From NCBI GenBank assembly GCA_016184115.1, contig JACPDH010000035.1:1-63548 (forward strand): a DNA stretch of 63,548 bases, in the 5' to 3' direction. The notes beneath the pieces are model-generated. The model had not been told where the DNA came from and searched no databases. It worked only from the letters and a program-made list of their open reading frames with translations. How positions within the stretch are numbered: the first letter of the stretch is position 1; each line of letters begins with the position of its first letter. The translations under genes and the position numbers were made by a program. Source of the stretch: Acidobacteriota bacterium. Lineage in GTDB: Bacteria > Acidobacteriota > Thermoanaerobaculia > Gp7-AA8. This document shows, one piece after another, positions 16,519 through 55,467 of this stretch.

Positions 16519-17694
16519 GGGGTCAGACCCACAGTTTAAAGTACTCGTGAATCGACAAGGGCAAGCCGAGGTACACTCCCCGTCACACACGCCGCGCCGG
16601 GACTTCGTCTCTCCTTCGCCCACGCGACATGGCACGACCTTTACGCCTCGAACATCCTGGAGCGATCTGGCATCTCACGAGTCGCGGCAACGAACGCCGA
16701 GACATTTATCGCGACCATGCGGATCGTCTCGAATTCCTCGACATTCTCGGACAATCAGTGACGCTCCACCGATGGATCGTATACGCCTGGGTATTAATGT
16801 CGAATCACTACCATGTGTTGCTCGAGACGCCCCACCCGACGCTCTCGTCGGGTGCCAAGCGCCTGAACGAGCAGTACGCTCAGCGATTCAACGCGCGACA
16901 CTCGCGGCAGGGACACCTGTTCCAGGGGCGCTTTAAATCGATCCTCGTCGAGCGGGAGTCGCACCTTCTCGAGTTGCTTCGCTACATCGTTCTCAACCCT
17001 GTTCGGTGTGGGGCGGTGCGATATGCGGGGGACTATCGTTGGAGCAGCTATCTCGCCACTGCAGGCCTATGTGCTGCGCCAGACTGGCTCGCGGTCACCG
17101 AGGTGCTCGCGGAATTCGGCTCTGGTTCGCGAACCGCGAACGCAGAGCGCTATCGACAGTTCGTGGCGGACGGCCGCGGCGCGGAGTACAAGCCATGGGA
17201 GCGACTCGTCGGGCAAGTCTATCTGGGTGGAGAGAGCTTTTGCGCACGGATGCAAACACTCGTTGGCGAGCGGCGCGAGTCGCGCGCTTACCCTGAAGCG
17301 CAACGAGCGTTCGTGCGACCCTCGCTCGAGTCGATCGTCGTCGCGGTCGAGGATAGATTTGGGGAGTCGGAGGCGAAACTGCGGAAACGTTCGAGCCACC
17401 CCGCGAGGAAGGCGATTGCGGAGCTGGCGTGGCGTGAAGCCGGCCTGTCGCTCGCTGCGATCGGTAACTGGCTGGGGATATCTCCGCAGGGAGTGAAGCA
17501 CCTGATCGATCGCGGCAGTGATCTGCAGCGGACCGACGCTGAATTCGCCGCCGAGCTCGAACGAGTACGCGCGCTACTCCAGCTACCATAATCGGAACCG
17601 GCACGGTTCGAAACGCCGCGTCCAAAATGACGACGCGTTTTCGTCCGTGGGATTCGGTGACGTCCCGTGGACTTTAAACTGTGGGTCTGACCTC
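16519..17694 (+). mobile_element. RAYT (REP-associated tyrosine transposase) element
   Basis: The left end at 16519-16542 (beginning GGGGTCAGACCCACAG) is the reverse complement of the right end at 17671-17694 (ACTTTAAACTGTGGGTCTG...) with one mismatch in 24 bp. Each end carries the palindrome GGGTCNGACCC. The element encloses one IS200/Y1-type transposase gene and abuts the N-terminal codons of the histidine kinase. A second copy of its right-hand 220 bp follows directly. Confidence 0.8.
16629..17591 (+). CDS. REP-associated tyrosine transposase (Y1/HUH)
   Basis: This 320-residue protein starts MARPLRLEHPGAIWHLTSRGN, the usual opening of RAYT transposases. The HUH metal motif is H60-Y61-H62 in SNHYHVLLE, and the catalytic Tyr is in LLRYIVLNPVR, preceded by GHLFQGRFKSILVE. 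The C-terminal part (residues about 245-320) adds a helix-turn-helix-like stretch (AAIGNWLGISPQGVKHLIDR). Such enzymes cut and join single-stranded DNA at REP hairpins. The gene appears intact, so the element may be active. Confidence 0.93.
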   Translation: MARPLRLEHPGAIWHLTSRGNERRDIYRDHADRLEFLDILGQSVTLHRWIVYAWVLMSNHYHVLLETPHPTLSSGAKRLNEQYAQRFNARHSRQGHLFQGRFKSILVERESHLLELLRYIVLNPVRCGAVRYAGDYRWSSYLATAGLCAAPDWLAVTEVLAEFGSGSRTANAERYRQFVADGRGAEYKPWERLVGQVYLGGESFCARMQTLVGERRESRAYPEAQRAFVRPSLESIVVAVEDRFGESEAKLRKRSSHPARKAIAELAWREAGLSLAAIGNWLGISPQGVKHLIDRGSDLQRTDAEFAAELERVRALLQLP

Positions 17695-17707
17695 ACGCTC
17701 CGTGCCT

Positions 17708-17928
17708 AGGGATCTCACCGCAGGGAGTGAAGCACCTGATCGATCGTGGCAGTGAGCTGCAGCGGACCGACGCTGAATTCGCCGCCGAGCTCGAACGAGT
17801 GCGGGAGCAACTCCAGCTGCCATGTGCGGAGCCGATACGGCTCGAAACGCCGCGTCCAAGATGACGACGCGTTTTCGTCCGTGGGATTCGGTGGCGTCCC
17901 GTGGACTTTAAACTGTGGGTCTGACCCC
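17708..17928 (+). pseudogene. Tandem duplicate of the 3' end of the RAYT element
   Basis: From GATCTCACCGCAGGGAGTGA onwards this segment repeats 17478-17694 at high identity: the last about 35 codons of the transposase, the same 3' untranslated stretch (AAACGCCGCGTCCAA...GACGACGCG) and the same terminal sequence ending in GGGTCTGACCCC. There is no transposase start. It is a truncated second copy; the intervening CACGCTCCGTGCCTAGG has a counterpart after the IS4 element at 19361. Confidence 0.85.
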
Positions 17929-33298: not shown

Positions 33299-33563
33299 CC
33301 ACTATGCCAGAGGTCGATCGTGGCGGAGGCGTCCCGCCTCCGTTGGCGGCGCGCACAGCGGCGCGGGTTGTGTGCCGCTGGCGCGGCACCGTAACGGCCA
33401 GAGGCCGTTACCACTACGCCAGAGGTCGATCGTGGCAGACGCGTCTCGCCTCCGCTGGCGGCGCGCACAGCGCCGCGGGTTGTGTGCCGCTGGCGCGGCA
33501 CCGTAACGGCCAGAGGCCGTTACCACTACGCCAGCGGTCGATAGTGGCAGAGGCGTCCCGCCG
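33299..33563. repeat. 112-bp tandem repeat, about 2.4 copies
   Basis: Units begin at 33299, 33411 and 33523 with CCACTAYGCCAGMGGTCGAT. Each full unit contains CGCCTCCG-TGGCGGCGCGC, GTGTGCCGCTGGCGCGGCAC and the palindrome GTAACGGCCAGAGGCCGTTAC. The unit can fold into several strong hairpins. The third copy is cut after about 40 bp. Nothing else was seen between the zinc-ribbon and glycosylase genes. Confidence 0.85.
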
Positions 33564-33591
33564 CCGCGCGATGGTCCAAGGCCGTCGGCCA

Positions 33592-36740: not shown

Positions 36741-37946
36741 GTGGAATTCGACATCTTCTTCTCGATCAGTCAGACCGAGGTCGACGGGCGCATCCCGAGG
36801 GAGCGCCAGATGTGGCTCAACTTCTTCGAGCAGGTGGAGCTCGCCGACCGGCTCGGGTTCGGCACCGCCTGGATCGCGGAGAGCCACCTGTCGACCGAGG
36901 TGCAAAAGACAAACCCCGACGCGGTCATCCCTCACTTCGTCGGCGAAGTCGGGCTGAACACCGACATTCTCCAACTCGCGCACAAGATCTTCGCGAGAAC
37001 GAGCAGGATCGAAATTGGCTCCGCGATCATGAACATCCTCTGCAACGGCGGGCCGATCGCCGCCGCAGAGAGGGTCAGGACCTTCCTTTCACTTCACGGA
37101 CTCGACGAGCGGGAGGCTCGGCGGATCACGATCGGCTTCGCCGCGGGGCGCTTTCCGTTCATCAACACCCCCTATGGGATCGTGCCTCGCAGCGCCGTCG
37201 ATCGTGCCGCATGGCCGGTCGTGAAGACGAAAATCTTCCAGGAGGCCACGGAGGTTTTCCTGCGCCTTCTCAACGGAGAGACGCTCAACTCGGGCGAGAT
37301 CCGGCCGAAACTGCTTCGGCGTCGCGACTTCAGGAGCGACGCCGATTGGGAGCGCGTCGTCGAGGCGCATGGAAGCGCGGCCGAGGAGATCGAAGTCGCC
37401 TCCTGGTGGGTCTTCCCTAACCTGAAGATCGTCCCGCAGGAAGCGCCGATGCAGCTGCTGAACCTCGCCATCGGATCGCACGATGCGGAGACGCAGGAGC
37501 TCGCGAACACGATCGTCCCCTGCGGTGTCTTCAATCTCTCGATTACGCCGGGAGACGAAATCGAGAAGACGAACGAGCGAATGTCGCGCTCCTACCACCC
37601 GGCGGGTGGTGGCTGGAAGCGGCGGCTCATGCCGCGAACGGTCCTCGTCTTCATCAACGAGGAACCTGGCCTCACCCGAGAAGAAAAGAATGCCCAGGCC
37701 TCGGCGGAGGCGAAGAAGGCGCTGGAAAACTACTGGAAGGCGCTCGAGGGGACGCTCGATCCGGCGAAGGTCGAGCGCGCGACGAACAACGCGCTCGTCG
37801 GCGACGCGGAGGCGATCGTGCAACAGATGAAGCGCTTCCACCCCGAAGACCGCCTCATGCTCTGGTTCGATTTCAACAACCACGACTCCGCCCGCGTTTG
37901 CCGGAACATGACCGCGTTCATGGAAAAAATCAGTCCTGAGTCCTGA
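36741..37946 (+). CDS. Luciferase-like (LLM-class) flavin-dependent monooxygenase
   Basis: This 401-residue protein has the bacterial luciferase-like TIM barrel: MEFDIFFSI, VELADRLGFGTAWIAESHL, RIEIGSAIMNI, ITIGFAAGRFPF and a long C-terminal part. Such enzymes use FMNH2 or F420H2 on diverse organic substrates; neither cofactor nor substrate is clear. It starts with GTG just behind TATAAT. The last five codons (SPES) lie in the AGTCCTG heptamer array, so the original C-terminus was probably altered by the array. Confidence 0.85.
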   Translation: MEFDIFFSISQTEVDGRIPRERQMWLNFFEQVELADRLGFGTAWIAESHLSTEVQKTNPDAVIPHFVGEVGLNTDILQLAHKIFARTSRIEIGSAIMNILCNGGPIAAAERVRTFLSLHGLDEREARRITIGFAAGRFPFINTPYGIVPRSAVDRAAWPVVKTKIFQEATEVFLRLLNGETLNSGEIRPKLLRRRDFRSDADWERVVEAHGSAAEEIEVASWWVFPNLKIVPQEAPMQLLNLAIGSHDAETQELANTIVPCGVFNLSITPGDEIEKTNERMSRSYHPAGGGWKRRLMPRTVLVFINEEPGLTREEKNAQASAEAKKALENYWKALEGTLDPAKVERATNNALVGDAEAIVQQMKRFHPEDRLMLWFDFNNHDSARVCRNMTAFMEKISPES

Positions 37947-38043
37947 GTCCTGAGTCCTGAGTGCTGAGTGCTGAGTGCTGAGTGCTGAGTCCTAAGTGCT
38001 GAGTCCTAAGTCCTAAGTTCGAAGTCCTGAGCCGTGAGTAGTG
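37932..38043. repeat. Heptamer array AGTCCTG, 16 units
   Basis: Sixteen consecutive heptamers without an indel: four AGTCCTG, four AGTGCTG, then AGTCCTA, AGTGCTG, AGTCCTA twice, AGTTCGA, AGTCCTG, AGCCGTG, AGTAGTG and AATGAGA. Degeneration increases towards the S23-like gene. Confidence 0.95.
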
Positions 38044-38097
38044 AATGAGAAGCAGAGGAGACTGGTGTCGAAGAGCTGAACGGGAGTGAGTCGAGCA

Positions 38098-38466
38098 GTG
38101 ATTGCGAAGTTCGAAGATCTGAACGCGTGGCAGAAAGCGAGAGCGTTGACGCGGGAGGTCTATCGAGTCACTCAAGGCGATGGGTTCAGGCAGGACTTCG
38201 GCCTGAGGGATCAGGCGAGGCGTGCGGCAGTTTCGGTCATGGCAAACGTGGCGGAAGGGTTCGAAAGGCACAGGCTGGGTGAGTTCAAACAGTATTTGTC
38301 GGTGGCGAAGGCGAGCTGCGCGGAATTGCGCTCGCATCTGTATGTGGCGCTGGATGTTGGATACCTGGCGCAGCACGAGTTCGAACAGGTCTCGGCGCTG
38401 GCAAACGAAACGACTCGAGTCATCGCGGGCCTAAGGTCCTCGATCGCTCGCCCAAAACAGGGCTGA
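38098..38466 (+). CDS. Four-helix-bundle protein, S23/IVP (Avd-like) family
   Basis: This protein of about 122 residues has the typical features of the 23S-rRNA-intervening-sequence (S23) family: KFEDLNAWQKARALTREVYRV, QARRAAVSVMANVAEGFER, a FKQYLSVAKASCAELRSHL helix and a C-terminal LANETTRVIAGL. Members form pentameric four-helix bundles; related Avd proteins help reverse transcriptases in diversity-generating retroelements. GTG 38098 was chosen with GGGAG 11 nt upstream; GTG 38086 is the alternative. Heptamer arrays in opposite orientation flank the gene on both sides. No reverse transcriptase and no rRNA gene is in the window. Confidence 0.85.
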   Translation: MIAKFEDLNAWQKARALTREVYRVTQGDGFRQDFGLRDQARRAAVSVMANVAEGFERHRLGEFKQYLSVAKASCAELRSHLYVALDVGYLAQHEFEQVSALANETTRVIAGLRSSIARPKQG

Positions 38467-38469
38467 CTT

Positions 38470-39699
38470 ATGTCTACACCACCAGACCGACACGAAGCGC
38501 CGCTCACTCCGGAACTCGGACTGAAGACCGAGGACTCAGGACTGAGGACTCAGGACTCAGGGCTCACGACCGAGGACTCACGACTCCGGACCGAGGACTC
38601 ACGACTCCGGACTGAGGACTCAGGACTCCGGACTGAGGACTCAGCACTCAGCACTCAGCACTCAGCACTCAGTAATCGTCCCGATTGGCAGCCGCTCGTC
38701 GAGTACCGACGCAACGGAATCGCGGAGAACACGATCCACGGGGCAGTCGCCTGGGTGTCTGGAACGAGGCTCATCCACTCCTTTGGCGGCAACGTCGAGT
38801 GCTACGGCCGTTCGATGCTGAAGCCGCAGATGATGAAGGTCTTTGCGAAGGATCTCGATGCGGTTCTCGACCCCGAGCAGAAAGCGATCTCCGTTGCGTC
38901 GCACAATGGCGACACCGAGCATGTCCGCGTCGTGAAGTCGATCCTTTCTGACACGGAGTGGGGACTCATGCAGGCGCCGCTCGATGTGCCGCTCGTGCAG
39001 TTCGGGCGGCAGGTGCGCCGCCCTCGCCGCTGGTACCACTGCTGCTCCGGTGAGCACGCGGCGATCCTGCGCGGCTGCCGCATCCGCGGCTGGTCGCGCG
39101 TCGGCTATGTCTGGCCTCACCACCCCTTCTTCCAGGAGTTTCTCGGGTACATCGCCCGCGTCCTCGGTCCCGAGTGGAAACAGGGGACGATCGCGAAGGA
39201 TGGTTGCGGCCTGCCGACCGTGAGCATGACCGTCTCCGATCTCGCGCGTCTCTACGCCGCGATGGTCACGGAGAAGAACGACGACTGGATCTGGCGTGCG
39301 ATGGTCGAGCACCCCGACTTGATCGGAGGGTTCAACCGTCTCGACTCGACGATCCTCAAGGCGTGCGGAGGAAAGGTCATCGCGAAGGAAGGGGCCGACG
39401 GCCTGCTCGGCATGGCGGTCGAGCACCCCGAGTATCCGGAAGGGTTAGGCGTCGTGATCAAGATCGCGCACGGCTGGAACCCGCAGGCAACCTGGTACGT
39501 GGCGCGCTACGTTCTCGGCGTACTCGGCTTCGAGTTCCGCAACCCATACAAGCTGAGCCGGCAGAAGGCGTTCATCGTTCCCGACGTGATCCCGGAGACG
39601 CTGCGCGGCCGGATGGAGACTATCGTGCCGTGGGATTCGTGGGATCCCGACGTCGACCGGTGGGAGTTCAACCCAGGCGACTATGTCGGACGGAGTTGA
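38470..39699 (+). CDS. L-asparaginase II family protein with repeat-encoded N-terminus
   Basis: From about residue 70 the protein matches the Asparaginase_II family: WQPLVEYRRNGIAENTIHGAVAW, CCSGEHAAILRGCRIRGW, GYVWPHHPFFQEFL and DGCGLPTVSMTVSDLARLYAAM. It probably hydrolyses asparagine or a related amide in the cytoplasm. The first about 68 residues are encoded largely by the ACTCAGG heptamer array (EDSGLRTQDSGLTTEDSRL pattern). No ATG, GTG or TTG lies between the array and the conserved part, so either the array is translated from ATG 38470 or the original start was lost. The ribosome-binding site before 38470 is weak. Confidence 0.8.
   Translation: MSTPPDRHEAPLTPELGLKTEDSGLRTQDSGLTTEDSRLRTEDSRLRTEDSGLRTEDSALSTQHSALSNRPDWQPLVEYRRNGIAENTIHGAVAWVSGTRLIHSFGGNVECYGRSMLKPQMMKVFAKDLDAVLDPEQKAISVASHNGDTEHVRVVKSILSDTEWGLMQAPLDVPLVQFGRQVRRPRRWYHCCSGEHAAILRGCRIRGWSRVGYVWPHHPFFQEFLGYIARVLGPEWKQGTIAKDGCGLPTVSMTVSDLARLYAAMVTEKNDDWIWRAMVEHPDLIGGFNRLDSTILKACGGKVIAKEGADGLLGMAVEHPEYPEGLGVVIKIAHGWNPQATWYVARYVLGVLGFEFRNPYKLSRQKAFIVPDVIPETLRGRMETIVPWDSWDPDVDRWEFNPGDYVGRS
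38506..38673. repeat. Heptamer array ACTCAGG, 24 units, inside an open reading frame
   Basis: Twenty-four heptamers in strict phase, mostly ACTCAGG, ACTGAGG, ACTCCGG, ACCGAGG, ACTCACG and, at the end, ACTCAGC repeats. Together they are the reverse complement of the AGTCCTG array at 37932. Three heptamers equal seven codons, so the frame stays open and reads LRTEDSG-type heptapeptides. Confidence 0.95.
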
Positions 39700-44141: not shown

Positions 44142-44312
44142 GAGTGCTGAGTCCTCAGTCCTGAGTCCTCAGTCCTCAGTCAGTATCGTCGGATGACATG
44201 GGTGTCAGTGACGCACACGACATTGTCACGTCATCTATTCGCATTTGTTGGCACGCACCCTGCTCACTATGCTCAGCACTCAGGACTGAGGACTCAGGAC
44301 TGAGGACTCAGG
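44142..44312. repeat. Paired heptamer element, AGTCCTG type, with 87-bp spacer
   Basis: Six heptamers on the left (GAGTGCT, GAGTCCT, CAGTCCT, GAGTCCT, CAGTCCT, CAGTCAG; 44142-44183) face six of reverse-complement type on the right (GCTCAGC, ACTCAGG, ACTGAGG, ACTCAGG, ACTGAGG, ACTCAGG; 44271-44312). The spacer contains GATGACA and TGTCACGTCATC and could fold into its own hairpin. It fills the ddl-cardiolipin synthase gap. Confidence 0.88.
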
Positions 44313-55423: not shown

Positions 55424-55454
55424 AGTGCTGAGCACTCAGGACTCAGCACTCAGG
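55424..55454. repeat. Minimal heptamer element, AGTCCTG type
   Basis: AGTGCTG at 55424-55430 is followed immediately by AGC ACTCAGG ACTCAGC ACTCAGG. The two halves form the palindrome AGTGCTGAGCACT. There is no spacer, in contrast to the other paired elements. It ends 13 bp before the start of the ATPase gene. Confidence 0.8.
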
Positions 55455-55467
55455 ACTCTAAACTTCC

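Follow-up and report, generated by a model that had tools for sequence, protein, structure and literature searches.

The 63,548-nucleotide contig JACPDH010000035.1 of an Acidobacteriota bacterium (GenBank assembly GCA_016184115.1), hereafter the window, holds a small gene of the S23 family of four-helix-bundle proteins, framed by two tandem arrays of a seven-nucleotide unit that are inverted relative to each other (Table 1). An initial annotation, made from the sequence alone, had singled out this arrangement as a candidate new element, suggesting that the S23 protein may act on the arrays, with gene-less copies as derivatives spread in trans. By comparing the locus with S23 genes and repeat arrays in other bacterial genomes, we find this interpretation supported far beyond the window.

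The S23 gene and its arms in the window

The S23 gene is the only gene between the two arms, and its product matches PF05635 with 111 bits against a cut-off of 33.8. The annotated architecture, with inverted arrays free of indels on both sides of the gene, stands; the annotated unit numbers, 16 and 24, required correction to 15–16 and 22–23, and the units vary within the pattern AGTSCTN. The element does not sit in a 23S rRNA gene; its place is the junction between the genes for an LLM-class oxidoreductase and asparaginase II. The left arm overlaps the 3′ end of the oxidoreductase open reading frame (ORF), whose TGA stop codon lies inside the array, and the asparaginase ORF is open from position 38470, in frame through the right arm.

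Table 1. Coordinates of the S23 element, its host genes and its partial copies in the window
Feature	Position	Strand	Description
Left arm	37932..38039	+	period 7, 15.4 copies, 0 indels, consensus AGTCCTG; about 15 AGTSCTN heptamers
S23 (four-helix-bundle) gene	38086..38466	+	126 aa; PF05635, TIGR02436 'four helix bundle protein'
Right arm	38514..38672	-	about 22 units, 0 indels; consensus is the reverse complement of the left arm
Host gene left of the insertion	36741..37946	+	LLM-class (luciferase-like) oxidoreductase; profile match
Host gene right of the insertion	38680..39699	+	asparaginase II; PF06089
Gene-less derivative	44142..44312		inverted arrays 44142–44181 and 44272–44312, 90-bp spacer
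Minimal remnant	55424..55457		single left-type unit joined to a right-type array of four units

The gene-less inverted pair that had been annotated further downstream was confirmed; it folds into a long hairpin with almost perfect pairing (−91.3 kcal/mol, z-score −8.1). The supposed spacer-free form at 55424 also exists, but it amounts to one left-type unit ahead of four right-type units. Four heptamer arrays of this kind are observed in the window, compared to none in 20 shuffles of it. Short-period arrays in a 438-kb sample of the same genome, chosen to include S23 loci, number 40 with period 7, and none was found with periods 4–6 or 8–11; all three inverted pairs in this sample whose arrays lie more than 200 bp apart enclose S23 genes. 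The genome also contains a second gene-less family, an inverted ATTTCGG/AAATCCG heptamer pair with a 103-bp spacer (locus L083, 9680–9859), for which an S23 parent was not seen. Two long-unit tandem arrays in the window, at 33299–33567 and 17475–17926 (units of 112 bp and 234 bp), are unrelated to the heptamers.

Paired arms around S23 genes across bacteria

PF05635 is present in all 19 genomes surveyed from the order to which the window belongs, with one to eight copies each and 69 S23 genes altogether, and flanks were taken for nearly all copies. With strict period-7 detection, arrays were found on both sides in 41 of the 69 genes, a count that varies with thresholds and comes from a set including several metagenome-assembled genomes, in which arrays break assemblies. 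The two sides are inverted copies of one heptamer in 38 of these 41 cases and direct copies in none. Exact inverted heptamer matches number 32, compared to 1.4 expected when partners are re-paired (maximum 8 in 5000 re-pairings), and the survey contains 29 distinct heptamers. Among 4181 windows with the same layout from other parts of the genomes, just 3 contain paired arrays. A wider measure was also applied, which covered periods 5–12, began the right flank where the conserved domain ends, and set the level at 99.9% of shuffled flanks. By this measure, inverted flanks exceed the shuffled level for 62/69 genes of the order and reverse-complementary arrays stand on both sides of 49/69. A survey of named genomes from many phyla, for which the protein XCC0516 served as query, gave inverted flanks for 63/79 S23 genes and two-sided reverse-complementary arrays for 44/79. 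Arrays are thus strongly enriched near S23 homologues, an outcome that favors the initial annotation, in which this comparison had been proposed.

Arms were seen, among others, in Xanthomonas, Stenotrophomonas, Luteimonas, Halomonas, Nitrospira, Flavobacteriia, Saprospiraceae, Aminicenantes, and Cloacimonadota, and array-framed S23 genes likewise occur in cyanobacterial plasmids, Riemerella, and Azospirillum. In Xanthomonas, the arms of the S23 gene are of the GGGAATC type. A search of phages gave no S23 match. Two apparent exceptions had to be discarded: one S23 clade taken to have no arrays has octamers, and many Xanthomonadaceae genes taken to have no right arm had been searched from the stop codon, which missed an arm that in most inspected cases seems to encode the C-terminus. 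In these Xanthomonadaceae (loci L151, L152, L153, L156, L161–L164, L176, and L182) the right arm is apparently translated as the end of the S23 protein (..SPIPNPESHAR), and the S23 stop codon adjoins or overlaps the start of the next gene. Several S23 copies with internal stop codons, as expected for decaying elements, lie beside intact ones in G038 (Sphingobacterium sp. xlx-96), C15, and C17.

The commonest arm length is 28–31.5 nt, which corresponds to 4.0–4.5 heptamers, and arrays expand to as many as 25 units. A unit length of 7 is usual, with 6, 8, and 9 also found. The arms look like true inverted copies, not two independent expansions, because variant units tend to share their order in both (55 cases better, 14 worse, p = 7 × 10−7). 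The left arm, which stands at the start codon, is purine-rich on the gene strand, with G exceeding C in 126 of 144 units.

The arms go with their protein and vary along with it. Across 127 heptamer elements, the distance between heptamers rises with the distance between proteins (Mantel r 0.38; maximum 0.17 in 2000 permutations), and an identical heptamer is shared by 41% of protein pairs less than 30% apart and by almost no pairs more than 50% apart. Unit length changes nine times on the protein tree, compared to 16.7 times when shuffled, and none of 200 shuffles gave so low a number, the tree being short (112 columns) with many forks open. Octamer arms accompany an S23 clade with GEWRQFLSQARGSL, and hexamer arms a clade with EKLDVY. 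Both tests include the shared ancestry of close relatives, and the contrast with the permutations is large. Neither a heptamer that differs between elements and tracks the protein nor a variable unit length had been foreseen in the initial annotation, and the same goes for the place in this class of the Xanthomonas GGGAATC repeats and, judged by its published sequence, of the Coxiella 23S rRNA intervening sequence.

These properties bear on one alternative, namely that the arrays are ordinary simple-sequence repeats arising by polymerase slippage in intergenic DNA, and that S23 genes merely share the same permissive places. The arrays do expand and do sit between genes, and a slippage origin of heptamer repeats in bacteria has been put forward (PMC4692102). 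However, the two sides match in inverted orientation with about 30 different units and never directly, the order of variants is preserved, the units co-vary with the protein, and gene and arms are inserted cleanly as described below. A generic slippage origin is rejected on these grounds, and we regard it as very improbable.

Filled and empty sites, and gene-less copies

Where a gene junction is filled, it holds gene and arms together; where it is empty, both are lacking. An S23 element is found in Trichormus variabilis plasmid C and in a Scytonema plasmid, and is lacking in Aulosira, Nostoc linckia, and Microchaete plasmids that are ~97–98% identical; the difference is a clean 428 or 414 bp, with GTAAT at both ends of the element and once in the empty site. 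In a Nostoc plasmid, a filled/empty difference of 417 bp is accompanied by a duplication of TTCTA in the same way. The 5-bp duplication may be a sub-family trait, because the two elements with clean duplications are close relatives on the protein tree. A truncated S23 remnant occupies the place in plasmid pC052_E of Nostoc sp. C052 (L265, 1530–1700) where other plasmids have a full element or none.

The oxidoreductase and asparaginase genes that flank the element in the window are neighbors in relatives, among which G009, G017, and G002 have no element between them, G011 has a different S23 element, and G004 and G016 have gene-less elements with other units. Because relatives are empty or hold different elements, the comparison of sequences points to a permissive gene junction hit by repeated insertion. 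Empty and filled sites, which the initial annotation had proposed to look for in close relatives, therefore exist.

S23 elements were also seen inside operons of clustered regularly interspaced short palindromic repeats (CRISPR) on cyanobacterial plasmids, in the orders cas10-S23-cmr3 and cas6-S23-cas4 (L135, 1486–1842; L138, 1492–1851; L348, 1495–1863). Genes annotated as 23S_rRNA_IVP have earlier been found in cas loci (PMC3936711), possibly because S23 elements insert into cas operons.

Arrays that stand free of an S23 gene can be related to the S23 elements of the same genome. In three genomes (1.24 Mb), 24/34, 86/106, and 29/64 free arrays lie within one mismatch of the units of S23 elements in their own genome; as G000 and G013 have a unit family in common, part of this signal belongs to both. 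Free octamers occur in the two genomes whose S23 elements are of the octamer kind, and G000 lacks both. Many free arrays are inverted pairs with a spacer of 10–200 bp. Among Xanthomonadaceae, at least 30 hits to the array pattern GNGANTN were found in 46 of 64 genomes with S23 and in 7 of 85 without (Fisher p = 2 × 10−16, with genomes counted as independent despite their relatedness). The view of gene-less copies as derivatives of S23 elements is supported by the units that they bear.

The protein, the proposed mechanism, and known relatives

An AlphaFold2 model of the S23 protein of the window (pLDDT 92) matches XCC0516 (2GSC) and BT_0352 (2RLD), both of which have five chains. It also matches Avd of diversity-generating retroelements, which has the same four-helix-bundle fold and five-chain assemblies (4DWL, and 8UB7, a ribonucleoprotein with the retroelement reverse transcriptase); a likeness between PF05635 and Avd has been noted previously (PMC10053308). 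The window protein is, however, not an Avd equivalog, as it scores 19.6 bits with the model NF033474 against a cut-off of 80. Invariant residues of the S23 proteins include Q, S, N, E, S, and E.

We interpret the S23 gene and its arms as a small insertion element, in which inverted tandem-repeat arms flank the gene, and the protein recognizes its own repeat and marks the arms for mobilization; we put the probability of this reading at roughly 0.7. The element would measure ~400–740 bp, with two inverted arms (typically 4–4.5 units or ~30 nt each, often expanded) tightly around one S23-family gene. Solved relatives of the S23 protein form rings of five four-helix bundles, and it is likewise predicted to be a pentamer that probably binds its own arrays, judging from the fold, the arm length, and the co-variation. 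It would recognize about one unit per subunit with the strand wrapped around the ring, so that the spacing of the subunits would set the unit length. The protein TRAP binds its repeats in a similarly wrapped manner. Ring-bound arms would then be brought together and marked for mobilization, and gene-less array pairs could be either copies moved in trans or internal deletions of full elements.

Several observations weigh against this reading. Profile searches gave no nuclease or recombinase family match for the S23 protein. Direct repeats of at least 5 bp outside the arms are not in excess (11.5%, compared to 14.6% under the null) at flanks for which there is no empty site, and the pairs at cas10-cmr3, TraM, nrdB-nrdA, cas6-cas4, and site 6 show presence and absence with messy junctions. 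Seven Xanthomonadaceae genomes (G041, G077, G086, G133, G141, G150, and G151) have at least 30 GNGANTN hits and no detected S23 gene; a lost parent, another source, or an assembly gap are possible explanations. Finally, Rehm et al. (2015, PMC4692102) found that two species share the positions of most Xanthomonas repeats, and movement in that group is therefore old.

The missing nuclease match also fits an alternative in which the mobile element is real and S23 is its cargo or regulator. The arrays would then serve self-control as operators or ribosome-binding sites, and anything bounded by arms would be moved by a transposase of the Y1/RAYT or DDE kind whose gene lies elsewhere. The position of the left arm at the start codon and its purine-richness on the gene strand agree with this, and the 5-bp duplications at clean sites are of the kind left by DDE enzymes. 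Y1 transposases occur in 18 of the 19 genomes of the order, none of them adjacent to or inside the window element; the window has one (PF01797, 38 bits) at 16668–16988 on the forward strand, more than 20 kb away from the element. Against this alternative, units vary widely within one genome and yet track the S23 protein, which is hard to reconcile with a single trans-acting transposase, and G017 carries an S23 gene but gave no Y1 match. HUH enzymes are not known to make target duplications, which also counts against it. We consider such an arrangement possible but unlikely.

It is less probable still that the element is borne by RNA or is a retroelement, with arms that pair in transcripts into an RNase III stem like that of rRNA intervening sequences (IVSs), and with copies made through reverse transcription, in which S23 would act like Avd. 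This idea draws on the likeness of the S23 fold to Avd within the reverse-transcriptase complex, and on the RNA fold of a cyanobacterial element with known empty sites, in which the arms pair around the ORF (−106.7 kcal/mol, z-score −3.4). The Coxiella IVS, with its S23 ORF, inverted termini, and heptamers, is cut by RNase III in vitro (PMC4990558). On the other hand, no PF00078 reverse transcriptase was found in the genome of the window (97% complete) or in 12 of the 18 other genomes of the order, all of which carry S23. Movement dependent on reverse transcriptase is accordingly rejected for the window's genome, which in this respect also differs from those with diversity-generating retroelements.

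The insertion elements proposed here are a class that is kin to the 23S rRNA IVSs. In Coxiella, the IVS in 23S rRNA is a selfish element of 428 nt. It has an S23 ORF, three tandem GACAGAT heptamers ahead of the start codon, and ends that pair as a 28-bp stem; it had been proposed before that IVSs are mobile and that their ORF has a role in this mobility (PMC4990558). As far as its sequence goes, the Coxiella IVS fits the same plan as the S23 array elements, and the IVSs of Coxiella and Leptospira resemble them in having an S23-family ORF, a length of ~430 bp, and inverted termini that form a stem. They differ in lying inside 23S rRNA genes. The array elements are found between protein genes and in multiple copies; they have derivatives without a gene, and their repeat is varied and matched to the protein. 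IVSs with S23 genes would then be elements of the same kind lodged in rRNA genes.

Several families of bacterial repeats also share features with the arms. The Xanthomonas repeat GGGAATC is a quadruplex-forming heptamer, mostly of four units, with ~70 convergent pairs per genome (PMC4692102). Like it and the GGGGA(C/T)T of Nostoc, the arrays studied here are intergenic period-7 tandems, often with four units and convergent. The short tandemly repeated repetitive (STRR) sequences of cyanobacteria and the TAACTGA repeats of Beggiatoaceae (MacGregor 2015, PMC4679880) are also tandem intergenic heptamers, a likeness by description only. In all of these papers, the repeats are described without a link to S23 genes or to a mobile element. 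Repetitive extragenic palindromes (REP/REPIN) with their RAYT proteins, and miniature inverted-repeat transposable elements (MITEs), likewise have short inverted-arm derivatives that are seemingly spread in trans by a full element; in S23 elements, by contrast, each arm repeats a protein-specific unit in tandem, and the gene does not encode a transposase. Our search of the open literature (subscription papers and preprints being outside our scope) turned up no report of a general association between S23 genes and inverted repeat arrays. No described type of element is known to combine protein-matched tandem-repeat arms with a four-helix-bundle gene in place of a transposase; alternatively, the members of the class may be seen as rRNA IVSs, themselves little understood, that occur outside rRNA genes.

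More broadly, and more tentatively, S23 elements may represent a very widespread mobile class in which movement is directed by a pentameric four-helix-bundle protein that lacks any known transposase domain and reads one repeat unit with each subunit. Repeat sequence and length would co-evolve with the protein, and many bacterial heptamer repeats and rRNA IVSs would be the products. PF05635 is a widespread family with no assigned function that is known from rRNA IVSs and cas loci and shares its fold with Avd. Its presence in the first two contexts would be explained if it is the gene of an insertion element that inserts at gene junctions, including those of rRNA and cas operons. Such an element would also offer an origin for the unexplained Xanthomonas heptamer GGGAATC, and connect several such repeats of bacteria with one probable selfish element. 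The S23 elements provide a natural set of protein–repeat pairs with varied unit length, in which the possible reading of tandem repeats by a small ring protein may be studied, along with the movement of an element that has no recognizable transposase.

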